Shown here piece by piece: positions 1-35,414 of a stretch of DNA of 35,414 nt. The translations under genes were made by a program, and so were the position numbers. The first letter of the stretch is position 1, and each line of letters begins with the position of its first letter. Source of the stretch: a virus. A model generated the notes under the pieces. It did no database searches. It was given only the letters and a program-made list of their open reading frames with translations, and was not told where the DNA came from. The DNA is taken from positions 5,995-41,408 of the IMG/VR virus record IMGVR_UViG_3300003813_000015, one strand, 5' to 3'.

Positions 1-291
1 ACGGCATCGGTCGTTGTGACTGGGCACACCGAAGGCAAGCGTTCGGTTGGAATGGGTGTCTACGATCCAGCAGACGGAAGCCCCATACTCACACCGATAG
101 GTAACGTCACCATCGGAGGTACGATTCCGATACCGTCCATCGGATCGGTGATCGAGGTTCAGTATCTCTATGCTTACGAAGGCGGCTCGTTGTTCCAGCC
201 CGTGTACCTGGGCGAGCGTGATGACATCGCCCGAACGGACTGCACAATCGACCAGCTCAAGTACAAGGCCGAGCCGGCGTTAACAGAGTAA
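1..291 (+). CDS. ATP-dependent DNA ligase, C-terminal fragment (5' truncated by window)
   Basis: The frame is open from base 1, so the gene begins before the window; 96 residues are visible. They look like the C-terminal OB-fold of an ATP-dependent DNA ligase: VVVTGHTEGKRSVGMGVYD, then PIGNVTI, then GSVIEVQYLYAY and QPVYLGERDDI. In this family the OB domain closes over the nicked DNA and helps adenylate transfer. The catalytic lysine motif would be upstream and is not visible. A phage ligase would seal nicks during replication and suits the head of an early + strand gene group. A GTG at 16 is internal and not the true start. The assignment rests on recognising the pattern, not on a search. 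Confidence 0.68.
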   Translation, partial: TASVVVTGHTEGKRSVGMGVYDPADGSPILTPIGNVTIGGTIPIPSIGSVIEVQYLYAYEGGSLFQPVYLGERDDIARTDCTIDQLKYKAEPALTE

Positions 292-446
292 ACCCGACAC
301 CAGCGGGTAGTAGTAGGTAGAAAGATTGAACGCGAAACATCCTAGGGGTGTCTTAACCGCCCAACCCTAGGGTGTCTGTATGGCTGACCACCATGCACTG
401 ATGAGCACTAGGTCAAACAGAAACACAGAAGCATAAGGAGTTAAAC
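292..446 (+). promoter_or_regulatory. Intergenic leader of the 125-residue gene, with possible promoter and repeats
   Basis: This 155-base gap holds a small hairpin (ACCCG/CGGGT, 292-308), a TTGAAC at 326-331, and TCTTAACCGCCCAACC at 351-366. The last resembles the TAATAACC promoter family found elsewhere, but the 19-base spacer is long and the -10 is poor. CCTAGGGGTGTCT at 341-353 recurs nearly exactly at 366-377. One copy of a 22-base repeat lies at 395-416. An ordinary Shine-Dalgarno AAGGAG at 435-440 sits six bases before the ATG at 447. A similar TTGAAC followed by GTGTCTTAA occurs near 4762-4787. The promoter call is weak. Confidence 0.35.
395..416 (+). repeat. 22-base direct repeat, copy 1
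   Basis: The stretch contains CACTGATGAGCA and TAGGTCAA. It matches 868-889 at 21 of 22 positions, differing only at base 14 (C here, G there). Both copies lie in leaders of early genes, about 30 and 55 bases before the start codons. Confidence 0.8.
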
Positions 447-824
447 ATGAGCACAGCAGTCAAACGTAAGTACGCATGGATCAAGCAGTACCAGTCCGAG
501 GATGGGCATTCGTTCTGGAAAGACGACATCACGGGAATGATTGCGATCAAAGATCGATCCGGCCCGACTCCCGATACTACGGACGATGGCGTCCTGTGGC
601 TGGAAAACAACGACTGGGTAATGGATGGAAAGTACATTCAGATCCCGGTTCGTACAGACGACTGGAAGGTAAGCTACTGCTTTCAAACATATGAAAGCGG
701 TATCAAGTGCGCCATCGAATTGGGGTATCCGATCAGGGTTGAACGAGGGGAAGCCGAACGGCTCCCGCTATCGATTGCCTCATTGCTCGTGAGCAAGGCC
801 AAGGCGACGACCTTCAAGTTCTAA
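447..824 (+). CDS. Hypothetical protein, 125 residues
   Basis: I do not recognise this protein. It is a mixed alpha/beta, Trp- and Tyr-rich small protein (WIKQYQSEDGHSFWKDD, VLWLENNDWVMDGKYIQIPV) with no membrane segment, signal peptide or known catalytic motif. The start is well supported by AAGGAG six bases upstream, one of the few clear Shine-Dalgarno sites on the + strand half. It lies between the ligase and the AAA+ ATPase in the same direction. It may act with either, but that is only position. It is followed by three hairpins in the next leader. Confidence 0.85.
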   Translation: MSTAVKRKYAWIKQYQSEDGHSFWKDDITGMIAIKDRSGPTPDTTDDGVLWLENNDWVMDGKYIQIPVRTDDWKVSYCFQTYESGIKCAIELGYPIRVERGEAERLPLSIASLLVSKAKATTFKF

Positions 825-830
825 AGCGAA

Positions 831-870
831 ACCGCCGAGTGGCGGTCTGCCAGCAACGACCGAGCTGGCA
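831..870 (+). other. Two adjacent hairpins downstream of the 125-residue gene
   Basis: ACCGCC (831-836) pairs with GGCGGT (841-846) over a four-base loop. TGCCAGC (848-854) pairs with GCTGGCA (864-870) over a nine-base loop. Neither is followed by a T-run, so they are not classical intrinsic terminators. They could protect the 3' end of the upstream message or structure the leader of the ATPase gene. Confidence 0.6.
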
Positions 871-889
871 CTGATGAGCAGTAGGTCAA
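868..889 (+). repeat. 22-base direct repeat, copy 2
   Basis: Second copy of the element at 395-416, with one mismatch. It starts inside the last three bases of the second hairpin and lies between that hairpin and the 10-base-pair hairpin that precedes the ATPase gene. Confidence 0.8.
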
Positions 890-895
890 CCACCC

Positions 896-928
896 GAATC
901 CTGTACACAACAATCTCGTACAGGATTC
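896..928 (+). promoter_or_regulatory. Leader hairpin of the AAA+ ATPase gene
   Basis: GAATCCTGTA (896-905) pairs perfectly with TACAGGATTC (919-928) over a 13-base loop. The 3' part, AATCTCGTACAGGATTC (912-928), is identical to 2486-2502 in the hairpin before the VWA gene. After the hairpin comes a purely A/C leader of 16 bases with no Shine-Dalgarno sequence, then ATG. A shared structured element before both genes of a partner pair suggests common post-transcriptional control. Confidence 0.7.
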
Positions 929-944
929 ACAACACCAACACAAC

Positions 945-2450: not shown

Positions 2451-2460
2451 TAACCACGCA
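2448..2460 (+). promoter_or_regulatory. TAATAACC-type -10 element at the ATPase stop codon
   Basis: TAATAA (2448-2453) overlaps the TAA stop of the ATPase gene and is followed by CCACGCA, so the seventh base is A as in the family. No TTG hexamer is found 16-18 bases upstream. It may be a weak promoter for the VWA gene, or simply tandem stop codons. Confidence 0.35.
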
Positions 2461-2477
2461 CCAACAAACACAACCTA

Positions 2478-2509
2478 GGGCGGAGAATCTCGTACAGGAT
2501 TCTCCGCCC
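2478..2509 (+). promoter_or_regulatory. Leader hairpin of the VWA gene
   Basis: GGGCGGAGAATC (2478-2489) pairs perfectly over 12 bases with GATTCTCCGCCC (2498-2509) around the loop TCGTACAG. It contains the 17-mer AATCTCGTACAGGATTC found before the ATPase gene. A 17-base A/C-only leader (2510-2526) then leads to ATG with no Shine-Dalgarno sequence. There is no T-run, so termination is not the obvious role. Confidence 0.8.
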
Positions 2510-4212: not shown

Positions 4213-4236
4213 GCCCTAGAGTTCGATCCCTAGGGC
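4213..4236 (+). promoter_or_regulatory. Leader hairpin of the secreted repeat protein gene
   Basis: GCCCTAG (4213-4219) pairs with CTAGGGC (4230-4236) over ten bases. The two arms are halves of the iterated CCCTAGGG palindrome. A 27-base A/C-only leader follows to the ATG at 4264, as in the two preceding genes. Confidence 0.55.
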
Positions 4237-5652: not shown

Positions 5653-5785
5653 AATCCATAAATGCCCTAGGTGTCAGACACCCTGCAAACCCCACGCCTG
5701 CCCTAGTTGCTCTAGGGAGTTTGAGGCCATTGCCAGGAGGATGAACTCGAAGTTAAAAAAGCCCATTGACAAAGCACAGCCCTAG
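5642..5785 (+). CDS. 47-residue zinc-knuckle protein
   Basis: A GTG start at 5642 overlaps the end of the previous gene and opens 47 codons to TAG at 5783-5785. The product has two CXXC pairs, CPRC (8-11) and CPSC (20-23), with CKPHA between them, followed by a helical basic tail EFEAIARRMNSKLKKP. This is the pattern of a small zinc ribbon or knuckle and may bind DNA, RNA or protein. The conserved Cys spacing and tight packing argue that it is real. The stop codon lies in a CCCTAGGG palindrome inside the next promoter's spacer. Confidence 0.62.
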   Translation: MPPKIHKCPRCQTPCKPHACPSCSREFEAIARRMNSKLKKPIDKAQP

Positions 5786-5800
5786 GGTAATAACCGCGTA
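5766..5800 (+). promoter_or_regulatory. Sigma70-like promoter, TAATAACC family (best example)
   Basis: TTGACA (5766-5771), a 16-base spacer and TAATAA (5788-5793) followed by CCGCGTA. The expected start is A5800 or A5801, leaving only about nine or ten leader bases (ACCTTTGTT) before ATG 5810. The spacer contains CCCTAGGG. Confidence 0.7.
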
Positions 5801-6613: not shown

Positions 6614-6615
6614 GG

Positions 6616-6837: not shown

Positions 6838-7049
6838 AGCACTTCTTCACCACCCAGGCGGGAACGCGTCCACGCCAGGATATCCTCCCTAGGGTGCCCT
6901 AGGGTGATGTTATTTCCCCGCCGGTGGGCCGAAACCTTATCCTCCAGTTGCCCTAGGGTATTAGCCTCGAACCTGAACCGGGTTCCCGGTTGAATGTAGT
7001 ACCACCCTCCGGGAGGAGTGATGGAACTATCCTCGCCCCAGAGACTCAT
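6834..7049 (-). CDS. Small conserved-looking phage protein, 71 residues
   Basis: It starts three bases after the stop of the giant virion gene and is the last gene of the - strand structural unit. The product, with GGWYYIQPGTRFRF, FEANTLGQLEDKVSAHRRGNN and a hydrophilic tail, resembles short phage proteins of the form P.T...F.A.TL..L...V..HR that I have seen near virion genes, but I cannot name a function. It has no membrane segment. Three CCCTAGGG palindromes lie in it within 72 bases (6887-6958). Its TAG stop shares CTAG with the convergent + strand gene. Confidence 0.65.
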   Translation of the reverse strand: MSLWGEDSSITPPGGWYYIQPGTRFRFEANTLGQLEDKVSAHRRGNNITLGHPREDILAWTRSRLGGEEVL

Positions 7050-7052: not shown

Positions 7053-10000
7053 CTAGTGCCCTAGGTTGAGGTTTACTGTTTCCGGCGTGGCGTTGATTGC
7101 GTTCTGCAACCACTGCACTCGGTCGTCTTGACCCCTGCTCTGGAGTAGCTTGATCGATGCCGCACTAGGTTGGAATCTCTTGTAAGTCGCACTGGTAACT
7201 TGGTCGATGACATCCTGAGATACTCTAGCTCCCTTGAGGGCGGTCTGTATCTGCTCTGGGCTCATGCCGAGCTGGATTGCCGCCTCGTACTTTGTGCGTA
7301 GATCCTGCACTAGGGCTTGGTGAGCCTCATTCGCTTGCTTGTACCCTTGGGTAACCTGCGGTTCCGTCCTAGAGCCGATGCTTGTTGCGGCGTGCGACAA
7401 TAGCTGTGAAGCGTTTGCACTCTGTTGCATGAACTGGGATCCCGTGAAATGCAACGAGTTTGCAAGGTTCATGTCAGCCGCACGCCATCCAACCATGTTG
7501 GCAATTTCCTGACCGGCATCGTAGGAGCGTCCGCTGTCTGAAACATAGCCAGTAGCACCCTTGTAAATACGATTTATGCTGTCGATAGCACCTGGGCTTA
7601 GGGCAGTCCACAAGCGGTTGGTGACTGCAAGACCGATGTTTGCCGCCGAGTCCTGCGGGTTGTAAAGCGGTGCTCCATTGGCTGAGTTTTTGTTACGAGC
7701 AATGTCCATGATCGCACTGGTCGTAAGCTGTTCCTTATCGAAGGGCTGAAAGAGTTCTCCCATTCCGTCGATCATTGCGTCGTGGAGTCCTTTTCCAAAG
7801 TCGCCCTCATCGTTGGAGAACGCACGGATCACCGCCTTGATCGGGGTGCGAAGAATCTTATAGTGATCCCACCATGAGAGATCGAAGTACCCGACCTTTC
7901 CATCGGCCTTCTGGAAAGGAATGATCTGAGCATTCTTCTGCCATTCAGGTAGGAATTTACGGAGAGCCTCCTGATCCTCGTCGGTCATGCCACTTGCGGC
8001 CTGAGTCATGGCAATCAGGGCGGACGGCCCTAGGGCGACCGTTGCGATACCACGCATACGATCCCAGCCCATCTTGGTAAGCTCCGCGTTTCCGGTGGCA
8101 TTGCCTTCCTTGATCTCGTCATGTGCCAACTTCAGCAGGTTGTAGCTGGTACGATAAACCTCGGAGCTGAAACGAACGAACGGGGCAACGATAGGAACCT
8201 TGGAGAGTTCCTTTACGATCGCCGGCGATCGGTCATAGCTCCAGTGACAATCTAGGGCGATCTGAGCCGCCTTCTGATCTACCTGCTCCGGCGTCCATTC
8301 TGGGTGGGCGTTTGCGTATTTCTGACGCTCGCCGTAGAAGATGGCAACCTTGTAAGCCGCATCCGAAACTCCGTACAGGGTTTCAGGGAGATGCTTTAGC
8401 TTCACGCCACGGATATCGGTATCCCCGATCTTGTTCAGCGGGGAGGCAATCTTGCGTAGGAAGTCCCCTAGGGGAGTCTGTTTTCCGTTCTCATTACCAT
8501 CGATGAGTTCATGTAGCAGGCGGTTTGCCTCTGACTGGTGGAGCAGACCTAGCTCGGTTAGCCTTTGGATCTCTGGAAGATTGTTGCGTGCGTCCTCTAG
8601 GGAGCTGAACGGATTGATCTTACCATACGCTTCCTTCAGGTTTTTTGGAACTAGGCCACCATGCCAGTTGGCGGTGGTCACCAACCCTAGGAGGTTGGAT
8701 ACATTGTGACGAACCTGCGCCGCCGGCGAGAACTGGGTCTTTGCGCCCATCGAGTAACCCGTGACTTTCTTGAAGAGATCGAGCAACCAAGGCGTGTCGC
8801 TTGCGCCCATCCTAGGGAGCATCCGAAGCAGTCCATCACCGATTTCTTTTTGGATAAAGAGGCCGTTGAGCGGAGCCAATGATTCGTTATTGATCGAAGC
8901 GATAGGAACGTACTTGTGAGGGATTGACCTACCTTTGTTCTTTGGATCTGCCGGATCATATAGCGAACCATCCTTGAGGCCGGACTCCCGAAGGTCTGAA
9001 AGGAACTTATGATTTGCCAGAACTGCGGCCTGCCTGCCCATTGTGTCTGCGGCGATAGTTGCAGGATCCTTTCGCTCCCCTAGGTACTGCTTGAGGTCAT
9101 CCTCTAGGTTTCCGCGTTTCAGGAAAGTGCTCAGGTCTTTTTGACCAGGGAACTGTCCAATCGTGAACCGGCGATCCAAAGAATTCTCCCTAGGGTTTAG
9201 AAGCCTGTTCAACGAATCGTGAACCTCTTCCTCTGTAACCTGATCCTTGGCAACTTGAAGTGCCTCCTCTTTTGTCATTGTTCCGCCGGCCTTGCGGTTC
9301 TCGTTAAGAATCTCCGGCGCCCTTTCCTTTGCCAAAAAGTTACGGGTGCTGGTCTCCATACGGCGTGCCAGCTCTGGGTTCTTCTTGACCATGTCGTCAT
9401 GGGTCAAACCGGCATCCAGATGGTCGTAGGATCGGGTAATATAGATTCCATGATTCTCCTCTAGGGTAGCCTTGAGATCACCACTGACCACGCCCTGCCG
9501 GATTAACTCCTGTTGCAACGAGTCAATGCCATCACGGAAAGAAACGATAGCCGCCCGTGCCCTAGGGGGTAGCGAATCCAGAGCTTTTTGTTGTTCGTCC
9601 CGGTAAGTTTCACGATTCTTTTGCGTAAGTTCCCTGGCGAGTTTGATTGCCGCCTCGCTCCCGTTCTTTGCCTGCTCCTCGTTGACACGTTTTACGTCAA
9701 GGTCGGTCAGGGGATTCCCGTAGTTTCCTAGGGCGGTTCGTGCTTCAAGCAACTGCGCTTCGGATATCTTATTGCCGTAATCGTTCTTCAGGGCTTCAGA
9801 CCACAACCTATTTGCGTACTTGATGTGGTTCTCGGCCTTCAGCTTGATGCCCTGAGCCACTTGGTGACTGAACGATACGTTTTTGTTTACGCCCTTGTCT
9901 GGGCCGGTAAAGAGTCCGGCCAACCTAGTTTTCACTCCGTTGTAGGAGGAGATGTCTTTACCAAATAGCGTTTCCTTTGCCCCCTCTGGGATGATCGAAC

Positions 10001-13000
10001 CGACCTTCCTTAATGTGTCCCTGACGACACTAGGGCGTTCCTCCGAATAAAGGGCTTTGTCTAGATGTCCGCTATTATCTGCGCTGTAAGCTGTGAGTCC
10101 GTCAGCGTTTTCAAGCGCGGGTCTCGTCGCACCCAGATATCTCCTAAGACTTGCCTCTCCGACTCGGAAAGGGTCAGGAGTCCCGTCATTTTTCGTCTCT
10201 GCAAGTCCCTCAGTAATTCTGCTTCGGATGTCGTGAATGGATACTGATGCTCCGTTCTCGTCGGTAAAGTTTCCTGTGGCTGGGTCATAGCTATGTGAGA
10301 CAAGTTCGGGTGCGGCTTGTTCAATATAACTCTTCTCGGCACGCATTAAAGCGGAGACTTTTCCTGCGGTATCTAGGCTCTCCCATTTACGCAGGGATCC
10401 ATCCTTGTCGAGGTTTGGGAACATCCGGCTACGCTGATCGATGGTAGGCCGGAAATGCTCTGCATCTTGGTTTCGTATTGCAGATGAGATCTGTTGTGCG
10501 TTCCTACGGAAATGACCCGCCCATGAGGTCGTCGTGTCAGGAACTACCTTCTGTCCGGTGTTGTGAGCCCATTGGTAGATCGCTTGATAAATGCTGGAAG
10601 CCTTACGGATTGTTCCGTTGGCTCCGTCGGAAGAATCGATTGTCAGGCTATCTTTTTCGCTGTGAGGTACTGAATCATCGTACAGACGAACTGATCCCTT
10701 TGCGGCAACCGCCTGTGTTTCTGGCAGTTGAAAGTCTGGGCTTTTGTCTGTTGGGCGAATCGTAAGGACGCCGTTCTCGGCTTTGATTACTTTTCCGTCA
10801 GAGTATCCATCGTTTCTCTTTCCGTCGGTAGCAGGGAAAAGAACCATATCTCCTTTGATCGGGGTTTCAGAAATCAGCTTCATGCCATAGGCATCGAATG
10901 AAGAGAATTTGCTACCCGTGGAATTCAGAACCTCCGTCAGGTCATCACTCTTTGAGAGTTCTTGGGGGAGACGGAACATGTCCTGACCCTTCTCGCGCCC
11001 TAGGCGCAACATCGATTCCCCTAGGGACTCGCGAGCTGGTGACTCCAAAGGAGTTTCCTTGCCGGCAAGCATACGAGCCCCCACCTTTTTCATTGCACTG
11101 TACGCTTCTTTTGTAGGAGCCCCACCCCACTCCGAAGCGTCCGATTGAGCGGCTTTCTTCCACTCCTCATAAGATGCAGTAGCGGCAAGTCGTTGGAGAT
11201 CTGCTTGCGAGTAAGTTTCTCCAGGCTCCTCCTCATTCTTTGCCTGGACAGCCGGCTTTTCGGTTTTCTGCTCCACCCTAGGGGGTTCAGGTGCCGGTGC
11301 TATTTCAGCCACCTGCTTACGCTCTACCGGAGTGCTTTCTTTCTTTGGCCTTCCTCGTTTTGGCTTCGGGGGTTCAGGAGTAGGAGGCTCTGGTTCAGGC
11401 CCCTTATCTGATCCGGCTGGTGGCGCAGGCGGCTCCTCCTCATCCGGCTTCTTTGTGTCCGTCGGAGTTGGTGTTTCCTTGGGAGATGTTTCTCCACTTG
11501 AATTCTCCTTGGCCGGCTCTACGTCTTTAATTCCTTCCTTGGAGTTCCACTCCTTGATCAGAGCCGTCCTATCATTGGTCGTTCCGCGTAGGTTGCGTTG
11601 TTCGATCTGATCCCTGATCCATGATTCACGACGCTCGTAGCCCTTCATCTCTGCGTGCAACGGAGATGCTTTGTTCTCCCTAGGATTGCTATGCGTCAGG
11701 TCAAATGCAGAACTGAAAGCACGAACCAGAGGGGAGTTTTGATCTGCTTTGCGCCCAGAGACCAGCTCTGTAAGTGCTCCGTAAACCTTGCGTGCGGTAC
11801 CTTTCAGAGGGCCTTTGCCGTCTCCGTAATCCAATCCCAGGGACTGCCCTAGGGCATGGAGATCCGGGCTCTCCTGGATTCCCCGGACAAATTCTTCCGG
11901 GCTACGCAGGAAAGTATATCCGTAATCGTTCTCGCCTTTGCCCTGAGACATTTCACGGGCTTTGGCTTCGATCTCGGCGGGAGTTCCGGCAATCCCCGCA
12001 CGATCCAAAAAAGCTTTGTAGGCTGACTTGATTTCATCAAGTGCCTTGGATTCGGTTGGGTTTAGCTTTGTTTTACCCGTGATCTTGTCTCGCTCTACCG
12101 TATGGAGGAGTTCGTGGATATACGTTCCGATGATTCCCCTATCGGCTTGGGCGTTCAGGTTAAGGGCTACGTTGTGTCCTTTGCCCTGCTTTGTCGCCAG
12201 TCCGCTCCAAGGAGCTTCTCCTGTGGGGCTGGTCTTGTCGGTGAAGCGACCGATCTGCGTGGCAACTTTGTTCCAGTCAACCTTGGTTCCCGACAACATG
12301 GTTCGAGCTACAAGGGCGAGATCGCTAGGAACTCCTTCTAGTTTACCGGAAGCCACCCTAGTGAGGAATTCGGCAGGGGAACGGAAAGCACCAGAGCGAA
12401 TCAGGTCTGCGTAGTTTTTACGGATGATCTGTGCCCTTTCGGCAGGCGTTCTCCTGATACTTTCCTCCCTGGCACCGGCTACAAGTTCTCCTAGGGTTTT
12501 GTTGACCACATCCTCCACCCTAGGAGCGGCACTTTCAATGCGCTCATTAGCATGGGCCGAGCTTGAGTCGGCCTGCGTGGTTAGCGCGGTATGCGCTTTG
12601 TCGATCTCTTCAGGCGACATCTTTGCGATCTCCGCATCGGAGAGTCGCCCTGCCGACTGAACGAGTCGGCTCTTTACTGCGGCTGAGAGGGCTCTGGATT
12701 GCTCAGGAGATGCTCCCAAGCTGAATCCTCGTGGTGCTGTAGCATCGGATGCTGAAACGCTTCCGGCTGTGTCTTCAGTAGATCCGCCAGACCCGACTGA
12801 TCCCCCTGCTGTAGCTTCATTTTCACTTGATCTGGCAGGGCTTTCCAATCCGTCGGATGTGCTTTCGCCATCGCCAGAGACAGGAGTTGAACCCTCGCCG
12901 ACTTGGACATCGGAACCTCTGGCTCCTCCGTTTCTTCTGTTGGTTTCGTTATCATAAATTTCTTTCTTAATTTTGTTCCAAGTGTTGCGTTGAGCCTTGG

Positions 13001-23034: not shown

Positions 23035-23962
23035 GAGCGGTTAGAAGAGTCTTTACGCAGGTATCGATGATCGGGATAGATGCGGAAGCCCCCAAGGAAT
23101 AAAAAGCAATCCTTGCATCACTCGCACCTGCCGTATTTCCGCAGAAAACTCCATAGTTTGCGGTGGTTTGGGTGGGAGCAGTTCCGGTGATTGTGGTGAG
23201 GTTACCGTTAATGTACGGAATCGTCGTAGTAGAACTGTTGTGGTTCATTCCAAAACCATTGGTAGCCGAGAGGGTATTTGTATAGTTCGTAGTGGTACAG
23301 CTAAGACCCATTGAGATTCCGCTACCCACGCCAGTCGGCATCTCTATCCTACCGTCTCCCGAAGTGTTTCCAGACCCCATAAAGAACATGGCCGTTGTTT
23401 TTGTGGGCATGGACGTAGCACAGACGTACATATGCTTGCTTGCGTTTGAGTTGTTAGCGTATCCGGTAATCAAATACTTGTTTCCTGCATTGCCCATAAG
23501 CCCCGTCAGGTAATTGTAGTCTGCCGCAACAAAGTTATTGTTGGTTACAGTACCCGCCAATGGAACTAGCGCACCCGCAATAGACGTTGGCCCGACAAGC
23601 AGGTTTGCCTGTTGGATTGAACTCCATACTCCTGCGTTATTCAGCGATACCAAGAACGTGTTAATCGATATCTGGTTTTGGGCAGAAATAGAAGATCCTG
23701 CGGCGGAAACTGCGTTAAACCAAGTAGTCGAGATAGAATCAAAGATTACTGAACCGCTACCAATGATCAGCCAGTTTGAAGGGTTGGTAGGAACAACCGA
23801 AGAAGTTGCCAAAGAACATTGGTAGATGTTGCCGGAATACCAAACATACTGCCCTGCGGTATAACTCCCGTAAGGTGTCCAAGTGGGGGCTGATGTGACT
23901 GGCGAAGTGTAAATCCCGCCAATCGATGCCCCTAGGGCTAGTTTAAGGCTTAGGGAGGGCAT
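23027..23962 (-). CDS. Tail-associated lectin-like protein, 311 residues
   Basis: Residues about 27-66 (APTWTPYGSYTAGQYVWYSG, then CSLATSSVVPTNPSNWLIIG) resemble the small aromatic carbohydrate-binding module found in chitinases and phage tails. The rest is Ser/Thr/Asn/Gly-rich beta structure ending in ARIAFYSLGASASIPIIDTCVKTLLTAL, as in concanavalin-like tail proteins. It probably contributes to receptor or polysaccharide binding. It overlaps the upstream 715-residue gene by one base and closes the tail-fibre block. Confidence 0.68.
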   Translation of the reverse strand: MPSLSLKLALGASIGGIYTSPVTSAPTWTPYGSYTAGQYVWYSGNIYQCSLATSSVVPTNPSNWLIIGSGSVIFDSISTTWFNAVSAAGSSISAQNQISINTFLVSLNNAGVWSSIQQANLLVGPTSIAGALVPLAGTVTNNNFVAADYNYLTGLMGNAGNKYLITGYANNSNASKHMYVCATSMPTKTTAMFFMGSGNTSGDGRIEMPTGVGSGISMGLSCTTTNYTNTLSATNGFGMNHNSSTTTIPYINGNLTTITGTAPTQTTANYGVFCGNTAGASDARIAFYSLGASASIPIIDTCVKTLLTALV

Positions 23963-26668: not shown

Positions 26669-27292
26669 CTAATTAGAATAAACCACAAAGTTCCCAAAAA
26701 GAGGCTTGCTGATTAACAGCGCTCCGGTGGATGAAGCGGTATAAAAAGATACAACAAATCCGGTAGTGCTTACGCTCTGTATGTTTGCCCACCCTTGACC
26801 CGTAACTAAAACCGCATAATTTGTATTATTTAGAGGAGTTGTGAATGTTATGCTGTAGGCTTGATATGTAGGATATGGAAGCGAGGAGATAGGTACTGTG
26901 CTAATTGATCCAAAGTTATATCCACCTCCTTTAGTTAATGCGCCTCCCCCAAGAGGATTAGTAAAAGAACCCCACGAAGCGGGTATTAAAGAAGCCAAAG
27001 TAGAACCAGCTTGAGGCGCAGAGGCGGTAGCGGCATTACCCGTTGTGCTGTTTGAAAGAACAATGGAAGAATTATCCACAATCTGCCCTAGGGCATTAGC
27101 ACCTAGGATGTTCACGCTGATCGGAACAGATGCTCCGTTAATCTGAGTTGGGCCTACAGGAACAGAGGCGGCAGAGCTTACGTTCTGGGGAACCCCAAGA
27201 TTCAAAACCTGATTAGGTGCTGTTCCTGTAAGGCTTGCAGTTGCCTTAGAGCCAGGAGCTAAAGGTGTGATTGTTCCTATGGAAATGCTCAT
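26669..27292 (-). CDS. Tail fibre-like protein, 207 residues
   Basis: It begins with a short module (LAPGSKATASLTGTAPNQVLNLGVPQN), shared with the 76-residue protein, and continues with Ser/Ala/Gly-rich sequence. A C-terminal beta domain (about 140-207: YQAYSITFTTPLNNTNYAVLVTG, WANIQSVSTTGFVVSF) resembles the tip domain of many phage fibres (the "NxxYAV..." type). Its ATG overlaps the upstream stop by one base. It probably forms part of the host-recognition apparatus. Confidence 0.7.
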   Translation of the reverse strand: MSISIGTITPLAPGSKATASLTGTAPNQVLNLGVPQNVSSAASVPVGPTQINGASVPISVNILGANALGQIVDNSSIVLSNSTTGNAATASAPQAGSTLASLIPASWGSFTNPLGGGALTKGGGYNFGSISTVPISSLPYPTYQAYSITFTTPLNNTNYAVLVTGQGWANIQSVSTTGFVVSFYTASSTGALLISKPLFGNFVVYSN

Positions 27293-28287: not shown

Positions 28288-30924
28288 TCATATCGATCCT
28301 CCTCCGACTGGCTCTACGATCTCTAGAGCATGGAGCATTAAACGACCCAGACGGGCATGGCCTGTCCAAGAAAGTTGAAAATTAAAATCATACCCTAGGG
28401 CAGAAGGTTTTGAGCTATAAGTATTGGCTGTAGCGTCTGCTGAAGATGTTGGGTAGGAAGGAGCTGGTAGCCTTAGTTGCGGTGCATATCCGTCAGAAAG
28501 TGTGGGATAGAGTGCGTAATTGCCAGGTACCGTCTCAGAATTTGAAGTCTTAGTAATCGTTGCCCAAGGAATCCAACTAGGCCAATCGTCAGGTCTATAC
28601 GACACGCTTCCGATTACCGATCTGTTTGGGCCTCCTTCTATGGAGTCAAACCAGAGATCAAGCCGGATCAGCTTTTTCAAAGCCATATTTTCGTTAAAAT
28701 TGTATGCTCTGGTTATCAGGGTACTTGTAATTGGAATTGGCCCTTGAGTACCTAAGTCGCACTCACCAGTTTCAACGATCTCCCAGAGTCCTACTCCAGG
28801 TGTGCCTACTGACGTTGTATTGTAGGAAAGGAAAAATGCTCTCTTAACACCAGCATCATTACCTCCAAAGATCCTAAGAATGTTCTGCCCTGTCCAAACG
28901 CCATCGAACGCCGGTTTCGCAGTTCCGCTTAGATGCCCGTTTGCAACCGCCCTAAAATCCAAAGCGACAATTCCTCGATAGTAAATAGGAAGCGTGCTGA
29001 TGGACGACGGGTCTCCGGCTTGGGGAGGAAATTGTTCAGGCAGGCAAGTCATCAACAGCCTGTCGTTGTGGTAAAGGAAAGAAACGTTTCCCAGCAACCA
29101 GGTAGTATCTTGTTTTAGAATGGGATCAATTTCTGCTGATATAGGTACCTGACCATACCCCGTAAACTCGGCTCGTGCGCTTCGATATGACCGTATACCA
29201 TTTCCATCCAAAGACCGGAAAAATAAGTCCCCGTTTACAATAGCCGTGCTATCGGAAACAGCTCCAATGTCTCGATAGAGAACTCGTTGAAATCCAGGTG
29301 TTTGACTCCAAAGAGATCGTTCTACAGCTACCGCAATGGAAGCCGCGCCTCGATTGCAAAGAACGACCAAGTCACCCTGACCCGTCGAAGTATCCTGCAA
29401 GGGGACAAAGTTCATAGTGACAATGGTTCCTAGATCAGCAGGGATGGATAGGTTTCCCCCTTCGGCTAGGAACGTAGTCTCTGTAAAATTCAAAAGATCA
29501 GTATCTTGACCGGAGTTTGTCAGAGTTACAGTTCCTCCGGTACCAAACCCGTAAGCATAGCCATCTACCGCAATCGTAAATGCCGTAGAATTTAAGATCT
29601 GCTGAACCACAAAAGTTCCGTTCAAAGCGGCTGTTGTAGTAGTTCCCTGAATCGTTACGACGCTATCCACAGAAAACCCATGAGGTGTTGCAGTTGACAC
29701 CGTGACATAGCCAGGGAACCCATAGTTCACCATAAGATTACCAACAGGTAATGTCGTGCCTGCCGGCACTTGATACGTTATGGTAGTAGGAGTTGTGGGG
29801 GTTCCTGCAACAAATGTCCCTAGGGCACCATTTGAAACATCCAAGGTATTATCGCTAGAAACTAAAAAACTAGCTCCAGGAACTACAGGCATCTGAACTC
29901 CAGAAAGTGTGCACGTTGCAATCGGTTGGCTTATCGAAAGTTTTCCTACCGGAGCATTTGTTCCATTAGGTACAGGATAGGTAATTGTCGTGGCGTTTGC
30001 AGTTGATGCCACAATAAAATTGGCTTCTAAAACTGCATTCGTAGAGTCGTTTGAATTGTTACTGGTGATGTAAAATACGCTACCGGCGGTGAACGGGAGC
30101 CCTGTACCTGTCAATGTGCAGGTTGTTCCAGTTACCGAAGCAGTTACAGGGTAGCTTGTAGGTTGTACTATGGAGGCAGTTACCTTGAAAGAAGGTGGAG
30201 TAATTGAGGAAATGTTTACCGAAGCAGAACTTCCGCTGTAGATAAGATCCCCTGCGGTAATCTGTGTACCATCAGAGTTTGCAACAAAAAGACGACCTTG
30301 ACCAAAGGCCATCTGCTTTCCTACTGGTACTACATTAACTCCATTCCCAAATGCAGTTGAGGGTCTTAACTGATACCCATCGTAGATTTGAGGAGTATCA
30401 TATCCATTCTGTATAATCAAAAATCTACCTGCCTGACACATATAGACAGGCAAAGAAGGATTGAGGAACTTGATAGCCCCGGTCGAATCTAAATTGAGAA
30501 CAAAACAACTTCTAGCGGCAAAGTTAAGAGCCACAATAACGCCGCTACTGACAACAATTACTTGGGCAGGATTTCCAAAACGAGGATCGTTGTAAAAATA
30601 TACTCCTTGAAAATTAAGTGCTTGTTGGACGAACAGGTTGTATCTGCTCGATGATGTGGTGACTCCGTATCCGGCAATCGTTATTTGATCTCCAAGTACC
30701 GTAGATTCTAGCTGTCCGTTGTCTCCACGAACAGATGGCCTCCAAAAAGAAGGAGGGATCTCGTTGAAAATCGGACGGGTCTTTGCACCAAGTCCGTCTC
30801 GGAAAGAGACGTTCTCAGCATACCAAACGGAAGTAGGAGGCACCAGAGGCGGAAGGCGACTGCCATCCATACCATCTGGTAACCCCCTGAATCCGTCGGT
30901 AAGACGCTTCGGATCGGTGATCAT
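28288..30924 (-). CDS. Large tail protein, nozzle candidate, 878 residues
   Basis: The N-terminus (LTDGFRGLPDGMDGSRLPPL; WYAENVSFRDGLGAKTRP) and central VVLCNRGAASIAVAVERSLW / VSFLYHNDRLLMTC segments suggest a beta-propeller-like podovirus tail nozzle or stabilisation protein, the role of T7 gp12. Residues about 255-405 are two tandem beta modules (TCTLTGTGLPFTAG...TITYPVPNGTNAPVGKL and TCTLSGVQMPVVPG...TITYQVPAGTTLPVGNL), and about 408-465 a third (TATPHGFSVDSVVTIQG). It lies next to capsid genes. No enzyme motif is seen. The leader contains a 14-base perfect palindrome. The nozzle call is inference. Confidence 0.65.
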   Translation of the reverse strand: MITDPKRLTDGFRGLPDGMDGSRLPPLVPPTSVWYAENVSFRDGLGAKTRPIFNEIPPSFWRPSVRGDNGQLESTVLGDQITIAGYGVTTSSSRYNLFVQQALNFQGVYFYNDPRFGNPAQVIVVSSGVIVALNFAARSCFVLNLDSTGAIKFLNPSLPVYMCQAGRFLIIQNGYDTPQIYDGYQLRPSTAFGNGVNVVPVGKQMAFGQGRLFVANSDGTQITAGDLIYSGSSASVNISSITPPSFKVTASIVQPTSYPVTASVTGTTCTLTGTGLPFTAGSVFYITSNNSNDSTNAVLEANFIVASTANATTITYPVPNGTNAPVGKLSISQPIATCTLSGVQMPVVPGASFLVSSDNTLDVSNGALGTFVAGTPTTPTTITYQVPAGTTLPVGNLMVNYGFPGYVTVSTATPHGFSVDSVVTIQGTTTTAALNGTFVVQQILNSTAFTIAVDGYAYGFGTGGTVTLTNSGQDTDLLNFTETTFLAEGGNLSIPADLGTIVTMNFVPLQDTSTGQGDLVVLCNRGAASIAVAVERSLWSQTPGFQRVLYRDIGAVSDSTAIVNGDLFFRSLDGNGIRSYRSARAEFTGYGQVPISAEIDPILKQDTTWLLGNVSFLYHNDRLLMTCLPEQFPPQAGDPSSISTLPIYYRGIVALDFRAVANGHLSGTAKPAFDGVWTGQNILRIFGGNDAGVKRAFFLSYNTTSVGTPGVGLWEIVETGECDLGTQGPIPITSTLITRAYNFNENMALKKLIRLDLWFDSIEGGPNRSVIGSVSYRPDDWPSWIPWATITKTSNSETVPGNYALYPTLSDGYAPQLRLPAPSYPTSSADATANTYSSKPSALGYDFNFQLSWTGHARLGRLMLHALEIVEPVGGGSI

Positions 30925-30927: not shown

Positions 30928-30941
30928 GATCCCCTAGGGGA
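30928..30941. repeat. 14-base perfect palindrome ATCCCCTAGGGGAT
   Basis: An extended member of the CCCTAGGG family, lying between the stop of the acidic protein gene and the ATG of the 878-residue gene, four to seventeen bases before the start codon. It could bind a dimeric regulator or simply be one more iteration of the palindrome. Confidence 0.7.
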
Positions 30942-31355: not shown

Positions 31356-31415
31356 GCCCCTCCACCTGGCTACCCTAGGGCTTTGTAGGCTCTAGGGCAG
31401 TTGAGGTAGAGGGGC
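31356..31415 (-). terminator. Hairpin after the major capsid gene (terminator or attenuator)
   Basis: In - strand RNA, GCCCCTCTACCT (31415-31404) pairs with AGGTGGAGGGGC (31367-31356): 12 pairs with a single U-G wobble. On the other strand the same position would be an A-C mismatch, so the structure is tuned for the - strand message. The 36-base loop holds CCCTAGGG and CCCTAGAG, which could pair further. No U-run follows, so it may reduce rather than stop transcription into tail genes, keeping capsid protein in excess. Confidence 0.6.
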
Positions 31416-31423: not shown

Positions 31424-32758
31424 TTAGTAGCTGGCGTCAGGAGTGCCGACGGGAACCAGATCAGAGATTCCGCGAGGGGCACGCTGGTGGCGCACCACGA
31501 AACCGAGATCAGGACGCTCAACTTTAGGGCCATAACCATATAAAGCCCTAAAGAAACCGATGCTTCCATCGATGTTAGATGTCCTGTCAGGTATGTTACG
31601 CCATACAAATTCACCAGTCCATGAATACTGGGGATTGTAGGTCATTCCGCCACCCGAAACCTTTGGCTTCGGAATGAGGATCTTGAGAACATCCTGATGG
31701 TACACAGCCGTGTCCGTGTAAGCGGCGGCTTTGTAAGCCTGCTGGACTTCCCAAGCATCACCACGAGTGGTGGCAAGGGGGCTGTATGGGAAACGACGCA
31801 CCCAAGCTCCGGCAACGAGGTCATACCGTGGGGGTAGCTCGATGTTGAAGAACTTGAATCCACGATAGACACCGTTCAGGCCGGGAGCGGCAAGGAGAGG
31901 ATTGCTCTTCTCGTTGCTGTCGCCCTGGTAGGCAAAACGGAAGTCCTGACGGACGTTGTTGTCATCCATGAGGAGATCACGGAACGTCCAACGCTCGCCG
32001 ACAACTGCATAGATGGGGGTCGTCTCATCAACACGCATGAACGGATTGATGGAACCACCATTGTAGCCGAGACGCTCGTAGATGTACTCCAGAATACCCC
32101 AGGTGAGGCGGCTGGTAGGAGCCGTGAGCGGGAAGCTAGTCGTGCCCTCTGGAAGACCAGCGGCGGCGATAATCTTAGCACCCGTAGCGGCGATGTACTC
32201 GTCCTGATAGGCGTTTGTCCAGACGTACTTGGTGTTCTCAGAGAGGACACGAATGACGTTTTTGACCTGATCTTCAACCTGCCATGCGAACTGAAGGTCA
32301 TTCAGATCGATGTTGGGTGAGTTCAGAGCGGCCTTCTTGAGCGAAGCAGTGCGGAGGGTAACACCGAAAGAATCGATGTTGCTACCTGCGCTATAGGATC
32401 CGCCACCAACGATTCCGGCAACACCACCGGATACTGAGGTATCGCCCTGGTTATTGATGGAAGTAGTACCGTCAGCGTTCTGCTGGGTGGAAGCAAACGG
32501 AGATCCGTCGGCATTCTGACCAGGATTCATAACGCCATCGCCACCGGACGACTGCCAAGCGGAGAAGGTAACAGGGTTGGTAGGAAGAGTACGCTCGTAC
32601 ACCGGATAGGTGATTGCGGTACCCTGACCATCGACCCAAGGCTCCTTGGGAAGATATTTAAGATAGAAGTCGCTGGTGACAATGTTCTTAGCCACGTTGT
32701 TGCGGATAAGACCAGACCACTCAACGAACAACTGCTCGATATTTGTTTGAGCTGCCAT
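31424..32758 (-). CDS. Major capsid protein, 444 residues
   Basis: Position directly after the scaffold gene and the size fit a podovirus major capsid protein. The sequence has an N-terminal helix (IEQLFVEWSGLIRNNVAKN), long mixed alpha/beta body, and helical segments (FAWQVEDQVKNVIRVLSENT; ILEYIYERLG) consistent with the HK97 fold. A Gly/Ser/Asn-rich loop (about 70-130) may form the E-loop or an insertion. The gene has its own 228-base leader with promoter motifs and a hairpin, and a hairpin after the stop. It contains no CCTAGG, unlike most genes here, as expected if that codon context is avoided at high expression. Confidence 0.8.
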   Translation of the reverse strand: MAAQTNIEQLFVEWSGLIRNNVAKNIVTSDFYLKYLPKEPWVDGQGTAITYPVYERTLPTNPVTFSAWQSSGGDGVMNPGQNADGSPFASTQQNADGTTSINNQGDTSVSGGVAGIVGGGSYSAGSNIDSFGVTLRTASLKKAALNSPNIDLNDLQFAWQVEDQVKNVIRVLSENTKYVWTNAYQDEYIAATGAKIIAAAGLPEGTTSFPLTAPTSRLTWGILEYIYERLGYNGGSINPFMRVDETTPIYAVVGERWTFRDLLMDDNNVRQDFRFAYQGDSNEKSNPLLAAPGLNGVYRGFKFFNIELPPRYDLVAGAWVRRFPYSPLATTRGDAWEVQQAYKAAAYTDTAVYHQDVLKILIPKPKVSGGGMTYNPQYSWTGEFVWRNIPDRTSNIDGSIGFFRALYGYGPKVERPDLGFVVRHQRAPRGISDLVPVGTPDASY

Positions 32759-32784: not shown

Positions 32785-32907
32785 CACTTTGTTGTCCCTT
32801 TCCTCATTTGAGGTGGGCAAAGAGTAGTAGTTCTTGTTCCCTCGTGCGGTCGAGAGTGGTTACACGCAGTTTTTGTTGCCACAGATTTACTGCCCTGTAA
32901 CCGGCAT

Positions 32908-32943
32908 GGTCAGGTTATTACACCAAAACACCCTAGGGTGCAA
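32908..32943 (-). promoter_or_regulatory. Sigma70-like promoter far upstream of the capsid gene
   Basis: Read on the - strand: TTGCAC (32943-32938), 17 bases, TAATAA (32920-32915), CC. The leader to ATG 32758 would be about 150 bases. The spacer contains part of the 12-base palindrome CACCCTAGGGTG. The base at position seven differs from the other sites, but A lies at position five. Confidence 0.55.
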
Positions 32944-32986
32944 CAATAAAGTCACAACCCTAGGGCGTTATTTTAGATCTTAAAAA

Positions 32987-34300
32987 CTAAAACCTGAGTT
33001 CTCCTTTTAGGGCATCGAGGAAGTCGTCGTACTGAGGCTTACCGCCACCGGCTACGTCAGCAGGTGATGCCCCTCCCCCAGCCTTCGGTTTCGCACTGGT
33101 GTACTTGGCGAGCTGTGACTGGGCTTCCTTTAGTTCGCTGTAGAGCTTGGTTACTTGGTTAAAGAGCATCGGCGAAAGAGCCGCTCTCCAAGCAATACCT
33201 GCCCTAATAGCGGGATCAGGGCTTTGAAGCTGTGCATTCCTAGCGAATGCTTCAGCCTCGTCGAGCTGTTTGTTCCACTCATCATTTCCTTCGACCCGCT
33301 TAAAGATAGGGCTGGCTTCGGTGATTGTTTTGCCAATGGTTTCGATAGCTTGAGAGTAAGCTTTACTACCCTCTTCCATCTGAACCTTAGCCTGCTCCTC
33401 ACGGTGGGCGTTAATCTTCTCTAGGGCGAGTTTGGCATTATTGACAACTCGGTCACGGATAGTGCGAACTTTCGAGAATTGATCCGCCATCTCGTACAGA
33501 CGGAAACGATCACGATCGTTCATTCCAGCCGCTAGGTCGGTGATTTTATCGCCTTCTGGATCCGCAAGTGATTCAAAGAGATCCTTGGGGCTGATATCGT
33601 ACTTTGTGGCAAGGCCAGTGACTGACTCTTGAACCTTAGAAAGAGGAACCAAGACGGCTTCTTTATACTCCTGAGTAGCTTCGACTCGAACTACCTGAAG
33701 CTCGCGTTCGTACTCTTCGTTAACTTTGCGAATACGCTCAAGTTCCGTGGGGTCGATCTTCTGTTTCTCAAGCTCGGCTACCCTAGCGGCAAGCTCATCA
33801 GCTCGTTTTTTCTCGGCTTTGATGGCCTCACGCTGTTCCTTCCAAGCCTCTTGGGCTTTCTTGGTAGCACCCTTCAAGTTCTCTGGAATCTCATCGCTTT
33901 CGGCAGTCGTAGCCTCATCTTTCTTGGGGGAAATGATGCTTGCGAGATCCTCTGCGCTAGGGAAAACAGAATCCGCGGGGGATTTAGTCTCTTCCTTTAC
34001 AGGTTCTTTTACTTTTGATTTGGCGGGAGCTTTCTCCTCTTTGACAATCTCGGAGGGTTTGAAACCTGGATCATCGTCCACCCTAGGGGCTTTGGCTTCC
34101 GATGCCGGAGTTGATGGAGCGGGTTCGTCAAAAGTCAGCTTACCCTCGTCTTTTAGTTTATCGAAGGCGGCACCAAATGCGGTGGCGGCCTCGAACGATT
34201 GTGTTCCTCCGGTATCTCCTTTGCTGGAGAACTCTGCCAAATCAGGCGGAGGAGGAATCATGGTGCTAGTTTCGGGGTTTGCGTCAGTTTGCGGGTTCAT
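32987..34300 (-). CDS. Scaffolding protein, 437 residues
   Basis: The product is highly charged and Pro/Ala/Lys/Glu-rich, with a disordered N-terminus (about 1-130), a long coiled coil (about 150-240, KKAQEAWKEQREAIKAEKK; RVAELEKQKIDPTELERIRK) and a further helical region. The C-terminus is Gly-rich then YDDFLDALKGELRF. Position before the capsid gene and composition fit a scaffold, which directs procapsid assembly and is then removed or cleaved. It overlaps the upstream gene by 17 bases. No protease motif was seen. Confidence 0.8.
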   Translation of the reverse strand: MNPQTDANPETSTMIPPPPDLAEFSSKGDTGGTQSFEAATAFGAAFDKLKDEGKLTFDEPAPSTPASEAKAPRVDDDPGFKPSEIVKEEKAPAKSKVKEPVKEETKSPADSVFPSAEDLASIISPKKDEATTAESDEIPENLKGATKKAQEAWKEQREAIKAEKKRADELAARVAELEKQKIDPTELERIRKVNEEYERELQVVRVEATQEYKEAVLVPLSKVQESVTGLATKYDISPKDLFESLADPEGDKITDLAAGMNDRDRFRLYEMADQFSKVRTIRDRVVNNAKLALEKINAHREEQAKVQMEEGSKAYSQAIETIGKTITEASPIFKRVEGNDEWNKQLDEAEAFARNAQLQSPDPAIRAGIAWRAALSPMLFNQVTKLYSELKEAQSQLAKYTSAKPKAGGGASPADVAGGGKPQYDDFLDALKGELRF

Positions 34301-34592
34301 AAGTATCTTCGTTTACGAGCGATGGCATAAGGCCACGGGTTGAAATTTCTTTTTGTTTTGAGACTGGCTTTGCCATGAGTTCGATAAGACGAATGGCCTC
34401 ATAAAACCCCTCACGGCGGGTATTCTGATGACTATTCCATGTCTCAAAAGAAACCCCTTTAGGAGGCTCCGAAGAGATGGGCAGGTAGGCGTCTTTGATT
34501 GTGTTAATCGCCAACTCGAATTCGGGAGCTTTGATAAGCTGTGAAAACACAGTCACCAAAGCCTCGTTCGATCTAAAATCGAGGATCGTCAT
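34284..34592 (-). CDS. Hypothetical phage protein, 102 residues
   Basis: I do not recognise it firmly. It is a soluble helical protein (NEALVTVFSQLIKAPEFELAIN; TRREGFYEAIRLIELMAKPV). Small helical proteins between portal and scaffold are common in podoviruses and sometimes have head roles. Its ATG overlaps the stop of the HNH-like gene, and its end overlaps the scaffold start by 17 bases, so it is translationally coupled on both sides. Confidence 0.72.
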   Translation of the reverse strand: MTILDFRSNEALVTVFSQLIKAPEFELAINTIKDAYLPISSEPPKGVSFETWNSHQNTRREGFYEAIRLIELMAKPVSKQKEISTRGLMPSLVNEDTYEPAN

Positions 34593-34819
34593 TATTGGCG
34601 AGACCTATTTTTAGATGCCGACATAACCCGAAGGTTGGAACGGCGGTTATTGCTGGTTCGGTGATCTTTATGATCAACATCCTTTCCGTCGCCCTTTCGG
34701 ACTCGGCCTGCTTTTTCCATCTTTGCACGAGCAGCATTGCGCTCGGCTCGACGTTTGATTTGTTCGGGCTTACCGTGGTAATCCCTATACTCCTTGGCGT
34801 AGTCTCTGACTCTTGGCAT
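34592..34819 (-). CDS. Small HNH-like protein, 75 residues
   Basis: The product is very basic, with MPRVRDYAKEYRDYHGKPEQ, a helical KRRAERNAARAKMEK, and a C-terminal DVDHKDHRTSNNRRSNLRVM (48-66). DH (49-50), N57/58 and N62 match the second half of an HNH nuclease fold (the DHxxxxxxxNxxxNL pattern). Small proteins of this type are common near the portal and packaging genes of phages and may assist terminase or nick DNA. It starts three bases after the preceding stop. Because the N-terminal half lacks Cys ligands, activity is uncertain. Confidence 0.75.
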   Translation of the reverse strand: MPRVRDYAKEYRDYHGKPEQIKRRAERNAARAKMEKAGRVRKGDGKDVDHKDHRTSNNRRSNLRVMSASKNRSRQ

Positions 34820-34822
34820 AAA

Positions 34823-35074
34823 TTATCGCATGGACTTGTTTCCGTGGCATTTCCACTTCTTGCGAGAAAGGCTGTTGGGGGAGTTGGGGTCTTTTCTCCA
34901 ATCTCCTTTGATCTTGTTGGATCGAGCGCAATAGGCATCGCCCTTTTTAGTTCCTGGGCGAATGCGATCACCGCCATCTTTAGCTTTTCCAGCCTGTCCG
35001 TAGTGAACGGTTCTAGTACGTCCTGTTGTGGCGTTCTTTATGACTTTAGTGAATCGCTTTTTAATGGTGGTCAT
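34823..35074 (-). CDS. Small conserved phage protein (possible DUF6321 family), 83 residues
   Basis: The product is basic and conserved-looking: RTRTVHYGQAGKAKDGGDRI, RPGTKKGDAYCARSNKIKGD, and NSPNSLSRKKWKCHG. The GDxYCARS and LSRKKWKC segments are hallmarks of a small phage family that I believe is DUF6321; its function is unknown. It lies between the portal and HNH-like genes. Its start follows a TAATAACC element with only six bases between. Two Cys residues might bind metal. Confidence 0.72.
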   Translation of the reverse strand: MTTIKKRFTKVIKNATTGRTRTVHYGQAGKAKDGGDRIRPGTKKGDAYCARSNKIKGDWRKDPNSPNSLSRKKWKCHGNKSMR

Positions 35075-35075
35075 A

Positions 35076-35088
35076 TATGTGGTTATTA
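35076..35088 (-). promoter_or_regulatory. TAATAACC-type promoter candidate at the portal stop
   Basis: TAATAA (35088-35083) follows the TAG stop of the portal gene and is followed by CCACATA, then ATATG. The hexamer TGGCTC 17 bases upstream is a poor -35. If active, the transcript would start about two bases from ATG 35074. Confidence 0.4.
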
Positions 35089-35414
35089 CTATTCCTGATC
35101 GGGTTGAGCCATCGGGACGGTCGTAGGTACTGCCGGCATACCGGCGGCTTTAACTTTAGCGGCGGTTTCAGCATCTCGCAGAGCGAGCTTCTGAGAAACT
35201 TCGGCTTGCTTCAAAGCCATCTCCTGCTGATGACGTTGTGCTTCCATCTGCATCTTGGCTTGGCTTTCCAAAATCTGCTGTTTCAGTTTTGGCGACATCG
35301 CATCGGCTTCCGCGGCCTTCTGCTGAAGCATCTTTATCTGAGCCTGTTGTTGCTCTGCATTACGTTGAGCCTGTGCCTGCTGGGCTTTCTGAGCGTTGAT
35401 CTGCTGGGCTTGTA
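35089..35414 (-). CDS. Portal protein, C-terminal end (5' truncated by window)
   Basis: The frame is open to the window edge and 107 residues are visible. They form a Gln/Ala-rich coiled coil (QAQQINAQKAQQAQAQRNAEQQ, in two parts, then KLKQQILESQAKMQMEAQRH) and a Pro-rich tail ending MAQPDQE. Long Gln/Ala-rich C-terminal helices like this end many podovirus portal proteins, and the position before small genes, scaffold and capsid fits. The core of the portal is outside the window, so the call rests on context and composition. Confidence 0.65.
   Translation of the reverse strand, partial: QAQQINAQKAQQAQAQRNAEQQQAQIKMLQQKAAEADAMSPKLKQQILESQAKMQMEAQRHQQEMALKQAEVSQKLALRDAETAAKVKAAGMPAVPTTVPMAQPDQE

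Follow-up and report, generated by a model that had tools for sequence, protein, structure and literature searches.

The stretch of phage DNA analysed here (the window, 35,414 nt) carries a palindromic octamer, CCCTAGGG, which is a genuine highly iterated palindrome (HIP) with a CCTAGG/CTAG core and with a behaviour like that of HIP1 of cyanobacteria. The window spans positions 5995-41408 of a 41,883-base IMG/VR record (G000 denotes the whole record) that covers part of the genome of a tailed phage; its longest relatives measure 70-74 kb. Exact counting gives 67 copies of CCTAGG in the window, of which 29 are CCCTAGGG, the same numbers that an earlier note had counted by eye. Markov models of orders 1, 2 and 3 predict 8.1, 10.3 and 25.1 copies of CCTAGG and 0.55, 0.42 and 1.68 copies of CCCTAGGG, while CTAG itself occurs 174 times against 119 expected at orders 1 and 2. 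The excess persists in the rest of the phage, and the whole record holds 81 copies of CCTAGG against 11.6 and 34 copies of CCCTAGGG against 0.5 at order 2, a density of 0.81 octamers per kb; at order 3, which already holds part of the signal, the expectation for the octamer in the record is 2.1. The runner-up palindromic octamer in the record has 3 copies. CTAG is not depleted in the record (197 against 135 expected), and its 116 copies outside CCTAGG are near the 135 expected for all CTAG, indicating that the excess is confined to one context.

The synonymous-codon shuffle gives the same result. Here the protein and the per-gene codon usage are kept, and 300 shuffles were made over the usable genes of at least 150 aa (31,647 bases). 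These genes contain 19 copies of CCCTAGGG, compared with a shuffled mean of 0.56 and a maximum of 4; CCTAGG is observed 49 times against 7.0 and CTAG 143 times against 91. The excess claimed in the earlier note is therefore confirmed at all three Markov orders and in the shuffle. The flanks of the octamers in the record show no consensus beyond the octamer, so the octamer is not part of a longer dispersed repeat, and the same octamer excess is seen in other records of the same phage (L021-L023). An identical capsid protein occurs in three further records, and the three loci with the identical capsid are 99.9-100% identical to G000 over 14,463 aligned bases. The Markov and codon-shuffle controls and the flanks without consensus rule out, as the source of the word in this record, plain base composition, codon preference or a dispersed repeat; the probability of such a source is close to negligible. 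The spacing of the octamers fits random scatter (coefficient of variation of the gaps 0.78; random 5-95% range 0.75-1.24), and no regularity beyond chance is found.

The 29 octamers of the window, which being palindromic carry no strand, lie at 365-372, 4228-4235, 5780-5787, 6887-6894, 6897-6904, 6951-6958, 8028-8035, 8466-8473, 9188-9195, 9560-9567, 11019-11026, 11276-11283, 11847-11854, 15108-15115, 16947-16954, 19974-19981, 20730-20737, 21612-21619, 22001-22008, 22916-22923, 23930-23937, 27086-27093, 28393-28400, 29818-29825, 30932-30939, 31373-31380, 32931-32938, 32958-32965 and 34081-34088. They occur in both coding and non-coding sequence, as the earlier note had said: 10 of the 29 touch sequence outside the gene list, and the non-coding share of the window is 10.3%. 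By simple open reading frame (ORF) calls, none of the 27 coding octamers in G000 stands in the frame that reads TAG as a stop, and the other two frames hold 17 and 10. The empty stop frame, together with the 10 octamers touching non-coding sequence, indicates that coding constraint limits where octamers are placed. The remark that the word drives the use of CTA and AGG codons holds in part; some of these codons do lie within CCTAGG, but they amount to only 37 of 155 CTA and 13 of 84 AGG codons.

The variants of the octamer show which part of it is fixed. In G000, the one-off variants in excess differ at positions 1-2 (TCCTAGGG 25, CTCTAGGG 13, ACCTAGGG 10 and CACTAGGG 9 copies, both strands), and there is no excess of variants in which CTAG is disrupted (CCTTAGGG 0, CCATAGGG 1, CCGTAGGG 1, CCCCAGGG 0, CCCGAGGG 0 and CCCAAGGG 3 copies). 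The fixed core with varying outer positions in G000 is a likeness to HIP1 as described by Elhai (PMC4390886). HIP1 (GCGATCGC) and the alternate HIPs are, like CCCTAGGG, single GC-rich palindromes far above the rest, at about 1 per kb (Elhai, 2015; PMC4390886); they too lie in coding and non-coding sequence and are sporadic between relatives, as CCCTAGGG is in the bacterial genus Hymenobacter. One hugely over-represented GC-rich palindromic octamer (34 against 0.5, next 3) is thus present in G000, and its density falls in the HIP range of about 0.5-2.5 per kb with genome-wide spread, the record being a genome fragment. Its abundance, density and distribution are those by which a HIP is descriptively defined; the core is conserved in G000, though not in all relatives. 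The description of the word as HIP1-like is accordingly well supported by its singularity, its HIP-like density, its mainly outer one-off variants in G000 and its presence in coding and non-coding sequence.

The word also differs from HIP1 in several ways. The HIP1 word has 0 copies in the window, CCCTAGGG has a CTAG core and is found in phages and in Hymenobacter, and no cognate methyltransferase was found in the genomes tested. Phage sub-lineages use other words, and one of them confines its word to half its genome. No earlier report of CCCTAGGG as an iterated palindrome was found in the open-licence literature, and CTAG is absent from the main text of Elhai (2015; PMC4390886). DNA uptake sequences, as described in PMC1939737, resemble CCCTAGGG in being short iterated words driven to excess and differ in being non-palindromic; moreover, CCCTAGGG is not known from a competence setting. 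A Type II restriction-modification site fits poorly: a genome that has to survive the enzyme would be expected to avoid such a site, CCCTAGGG is instead in excess, and no cognate enzyme was found in the phage records.

Among phages, the octamer follows the phage clade. The relatives were collected with the capsid protein of G000 as the query, a probable major capsid protein of 444 aa (31424-32758, minus strand) that has no Pfam match and owes its assignment to size and place. Forty-eight viral loci with a related capsid protein were compared; 16 of them carry 2-15 octamers and 32 carry none within the stretch examined, and the 16 are exactly those with a capsid identity of 64-65% or 100%. Whole-record counts, made for 29 of the 48 loci, agree with this, with 28 octamers in G004 (72,870 bases) and 0 in G011 (74,043 bases). 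The exception is G015, which has no octamer in the capsid stretch and 6 elsewhere in its record. Counting the pattern loci in viral contigs (n = 40) gives 17 separate clusters in L281, 11 in L280, which belongs to this phage, and at most 6 in the rest. In addition, the phage L364 carries 47 octamers in 23,081 bases (2.0 per kb). L364 has a P22/SU10-like portal, and its only similarity to the G000 family, a distant one, is a terminase about 22% identical; six records that are 33-35% identical to one L364 protein have 0 or 1 octamer each.

The host of the G000 phage was also sought among its relatives. The capsid, portal and VWA-like proteins have no match in 50,697 records of isolated phages, in which the terminase has 2 weak matches and the polymerase 126 weak partial matches, so these records gave no host for G000. 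Peptide patterns recover no relatives of the VWA-like protein in viral contigs, and Shine-Dalgarno use, modestly above background in phages of the G000 family, did not decide the host. Two genes are possible host clues. One is the tRNA-Cys (gca) gene in the left flank (L005:108-181), the sole tRNA gene in L005 and the window; the other, for L364, is a lysin with NAGPA, Amidase_3 and SPOR domains (L364:19734-20903).

The same excess is found in one bacterial chromosome, as the earlier note had proposed to look for. Hymenobacter polaris (G037) has 3302 octamers in 5.6 Mb (0.59 per kb) and 0 copies of the reversed control word. A scan for a triple-copy pattern covered one genome per species in 84,980 species and is, by our own estimate, insensitive below about 0.3 per kb; it returned 116 stretches, all of which were counted, and the only one with more than two separate clusters is that of H. 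polaris. In other genomes and other phages, what matches the pattern is mostly a tandem or clustered repeat. In 34 of the genomes behind the stretches, counted whole, the next after H. polaris has 328 octamers against 41 of the control. Within Hymenobacter (61 genomes, seed included), three congeners have 916, 902 and 177 octamers and the remaining 57 have 1-55; the octamer-rich G091 has 9 octamers against 1.5 expected in the 102 kb examined. Four draws of genomes by phylum were counted as well. The maximum is 446 copies (0.14 per kb) in 292 cyanobacteria, the runner-up after H. polaris has 69 in 395 Bacteroidota, to which Hymenobacter belongs, the maximum is 48 in 194 genomes drawn from a Puniceicoccaceae seed, and in 299 genomes drawn from a Rugamonas seed the maximum of 146 is the seed itself, followed by 60. 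From the seed titles, we take the four draws to be cyanobacteria, Bacteroidota, Verrucomicrobiota and Pseudomonadota. The cyanobacterium G307 served as an unplanned positive control, with 4096 copies of the control word GGGATCCC in 3.0 Mb; this word is the alternate HIP of two thermophilic Synechococcus (Elhai, 2015; PMC4390886). Janibacter hoylei (L080, L082, L094, L101 and others) has short clusters of CCCTAGGG on many contigs of one genome, with 156 copies altogether and a spacing of about 30 bases in the places listed, and these are a repeat family, not dispersed octamers.

The bacterial word shares its core with the phage word. In H. polaris, CCTAGG is fixed and the one-off variants are at position 1, with a second form, GCCTAGGG, at 199 copies against 30 (both strands), and T seldom precedes the octamer (18 of 480 flanking bases). 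In the congener G103, CCTAGG has A, C or G outside; the core is common to the two Hymenobacter genomes and the favoured outer bases differ. What phage and bacteria have in common is CCTAGG with a preferred outer C; their remaining outer bases are not the same.

An agent that makes or keeps a CTAG-based word is probably at work in this phage, some of its relatives, L364 and H. polaris. Our preferred explanation, held tentatively and at somewhat less than an even chance, is a host-linked HIP-type element, in which the phage grows in an octamer-rich host with an activity that recognises CCTAGG. The host chromosome would be rich in CCCTAGGG, the phage would multiply there, and the recognising activity could be a modification enzyme, a mismatch-repair or other DNA-binding protein, or both. 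Octamer sites would arise by point mutation from near-matches, new sites would be favoured, through biased repair or because selection keeps those that the host takes for its own, and they would accumulate up to about one site per kb. This host-linked explanation is preferred because a second phage and a chromosome carry the same octamer at densities of similar magnitude. The suggestion of the earlier note that the word mirrors the host genome is thus plausible in view of H. polaris and L364, but the host itself has not been found.

A number of observations weigh against the host-linked explanation. Nothing ties the G000 phage to Hymenobacter, and H. polaris, itself one of the seeds, is the only genome in the four phylum draws that reaches the density of the phage. 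None of the enzyme families PF01555, PF00145, PF07669 and PF02086 separates octamer-rich from octamer-poor genomes in the 20 of 61 Hymenobacter genomes compared. In the G004 group, the favoured one-off variant is at the centre, so the outer-variant pattern of G000 is not general. The retention of sites between relatives is mixed. L061 keeps 4 of 5 octamers in place with L056 (72% identity) against 0.11 for random 8-mers, 3 of 3 with L068 and 2 of 4 with L034 (0.10 random in both), and the close pairs lend no clear support, for although L024/L028 and L024/L027 keep 4 of 4 against 0.41 and 5 of 7 against 0.52, L027/L058 keeps 2 of 6 against 0.52, which is not above background; between subgroups there is usually one shared octamer site. 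G000 aligns with its capsid relatives over 0.7-1.7 kb; one octamer falls in each of four comparisons and is kept in none, and the other comparisons hold no octamer. Some relatives iterate other words: the non-palindromic TCCCAGA has 51-52 copies in each of G023, G024 and G027 against 7-8 expected, and G004 iterates CCCCAGGG (36 copies) and CCACAGGG (20 copies) beside CCCTAGGG. In G015, which has 35 copies of CCTAGG with an outer C or T, all 35 lie within 33.3-65.6 kb (33,260-65,645) of the 71.5 kb, or 46% of the record, and the part with the polymerase, terminase, portal and capsid genes has none; the chance of this confinement is about 5e-11 after a simple correction, for genome halves chosen after the data were inspected. 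In G000 too, CCTAGG is more frequent on the side of the giant gene, where 55% of the record holds 56 of 81 copies (2.4 against 1.3 per kb). A host-wide process would not be expected to respect such a boundary within one genome, except in a recent hybrid. This leaves two possibilities: G015 is of recent hybrid origin and TCCCAGA is a thing apart, or the phages themselves are responsible for the words. The mixed retention and the lean of CCTAGG to one half of G000 slightly lower the host-linked explanation and slightly raise that of a binding site.

The strongest rival, which we regard as possible but doubtful, is that a DNA-binding protein encoded by the phage, and possibly co-injected, recognises the words and changes its specificity from one phage lineage to the next; the words would then be like stoperators, but short, palindromic and mostly within genes. 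The stoperators of cluster A mycobacteriophages (PMC6550527) are likewise short and present in many copies, and their consensus varies from one phage to a related one; those described there are asymmetric, 13 bp long, mostly aligned with the direction of transcription and recognised by the repressor of the phage, whereas CCCTAGGG is an 8-bp palindrome mostly within genes, and no candidate repressor was identified. The relatives do iterate different but similar words (CCCTAGGG, alone or with CCCCAGGG and CCACAGGG; CCTAGG; TCCCAGA), and the confinement in G015 has a parallel in TCCCAGA, of which 40 of 51 copies in G023, 42 of 52 in G024 and 41 of 51 in G027 (78-81%) fall on the side of the genome that carries the giant polyvalent and early genes, a half again chosen after inspection of the data, those of G023 being concentrated at 0-33 kb. 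The gene for the 3384-aa polyvalent protein and the early genes mark the half in which G015 and G023 concentrate their words, and the lean of CCTAGG in G000 is to the same side. Three pairs were compared for the retention of TCCCAGA: it clearly exceeds that of random 7-mers in one (33 of 37 against 0.57) and does so weakly or not at all in the other two (37 of 47 against 0.64 and 31 of 39 against 0.72). These points have to be set against the dense occurrence of the same octamer in another phage and in a bacterial chromosome, and against the spread of the octamer over the whole of G000, with 19 of 34 copies in the 55% of the record that holds the giant gene. Moreover, seven family members (G009, G011, G013, G016, G019, G020 and G026) have no comparable word in their nine top 7-mers, except the leader motif GTTATTA; CCGGA-type words reach z 9-10 in G011 and G020. 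The idea of a protein-binding site, which the earlier note had raised, therefore gains from the differences in words between lineages and from the relative that restricts its word to half its genome, but no candidate binding protein was found. A wider form of the idea, to which we give a rather low probability, is a family-wide system of self-marking or DNA organisation in which several lineages would each have their own word of 6-8 bases (CCCTAGGG, CCTAGG, CCCCAGGG or TCCCAGA), in some of them wholly or mostly within the half with the early genes and the giant gene, read by a phage-borne, perhaps co-injected, protein. If this were true, the octamer in Hymenobacter and L364 would be convergent or shared through the host.

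Two further explanations concern mutation and modification. Mutation and repair alone, by C-to-T change at CCAGG in CCCCAGGG (Dcm-like deamination, or absent or reversed very-short-patch (VSP) repair), could yield CCCTAGGG as a word without function, and we consider this improbable. It draws on the G004 group (seven related loci), in which 7 of 9 variable octamer sites alternate CCCTAGGG with CCCCAGGG or CCCTGGGG; at two of these, the states of other relatives suggest a gain of CCCTAGGG, and the rest are ambiguous. VSP repair is one possible cause considered for the rarity of CTAG (PMC4687349), and it concerns the same C/T exchange between CCAGG and CTAGG, yet that process depletes CTAG and here one CTAG context is enriched. 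The CCCCAGGG/CCCTGGGG word is itself enriched in the G004 group (47 against 6.4, 10 loci, some closely related), and it is absent from G000 (0 against 1.0 expected) and at background level in 14 relatives without the octamer (4 against 4.8). Nor can the process produce the excesses of TCCTAGGG and CTCTAGGG, and the C5 DNA methyltransferase family PF00145 is lacking in 14 of the 15 phage records with the octamer and in the Hymenobacter genomes G037, G091, G103 and G120.

A methyltransferase encoded by the phage, or counter-restriction, is very improbable as the driver of the word. A methyltransferase was sought first because Elhai (PMC4390886) reports a candidate enzyme in all cyanobacterial genomes with highly over-represented words, HIPs there accompanying cognate methyltransferases; the same report has some HIP1-rich genomes without a CGATCG enzyme. 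No methyltransferase is among the Pfam, PHROG and PADLOC matches listed for 56 of the 82 ORFs of G004 (72.9 kb; for PHROG, the best 25 of 97 families), and none was found by Pfam in 45 proteins of G000, G021 and G002, which points away from a phage-encoded enzyme, although G000 is incomplete and small or novel enzymes could escape. PF01555 is present in 0 of 25 phage records and in 14 of 45 records overall, and it is absent from the octamer-rich G091 and also from G120. PF00145 is present in 11 of 47 records; among the phages, it occurs in 1 of the 15 that bear the octamer, in 6 of the 10 relatives poor in it and in neither of two others. The one octamer-bearing phage relative with a PF00145 protein is G008, a point in favour of the enzyme. 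Genes of this family are seen in G008, G011, G013, G020, G023, G024 and G027, six of the seven without CCCTAGGG. With no methyltransferase in the scanned phage proteins and with four families whose distribution over 20 Hymenobacter genomes does not match that of the octamer, the proposal of a methylase target found no backing, and the modification model is unproven. PF07669 is present in 19 of the 20 Hymenobacter genomes and PF02086 in 1 of 20. Eco57I-family proteins of about 1000 aa in L315 (G103) and L314 (G120), two genomes with raised CCCTAGGG, are 50% identical, and no close copy is among the best matches compared in H. polaris.

The purpose of HIP1 and the maker of such words have been a puzzle since the 1990s. 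Our results describe a HIP-type element with another sequence, outside cyanobacteria, in Hymenobacter and in two at most distantly related phages. CTAG is a tetranucleotide avoided by most bacteria, and given this usual avoidance it is the last core to be expected for an iterated word. The sister species and sister phages without the octamer amount to a natural experiment through which the recognising protein might be identified, and the octamer may serve as a host clue for uncultivated phages.

Two other words are iterated in the record. The word GGTTATTA / TAATAACC has 16 copies, 12 of them outside ORFs of at least 80 aa; ten lie in the window at 2448, 4768, 5082, 5788, 15221, 21259, 28255, 32777, 32913 and 35081, and six more in the left flank. 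GTTATTA is among the nine top 7-mers of 12 of 15 family records, with 13-33 copies each, and the GGTTATTA / GTTATTA word is probably a family-wide signal associated with starts or promoters. The third iterated word is the 10-mer AATCCTGTAC, with 8 copies against 0.1 expected; GTACAGGA has 15 against 1.6.

The record has a few undetermined bases, at about 2,500-2,700 and 5,800-6,000 of L005, which appear as X residues in the translations. The giant gene of the window (7053-17207, minus strand) encodes the 3384-aa polyvalent protein, in which LPD37 is the sole Pfam domain above the cut-off. An AAA_5 ATPase gene lies at 945-2450 and is adjoined by a putative VWA protein gene, read from the sequence and with no Pfam match; structural genes are also present in the window.

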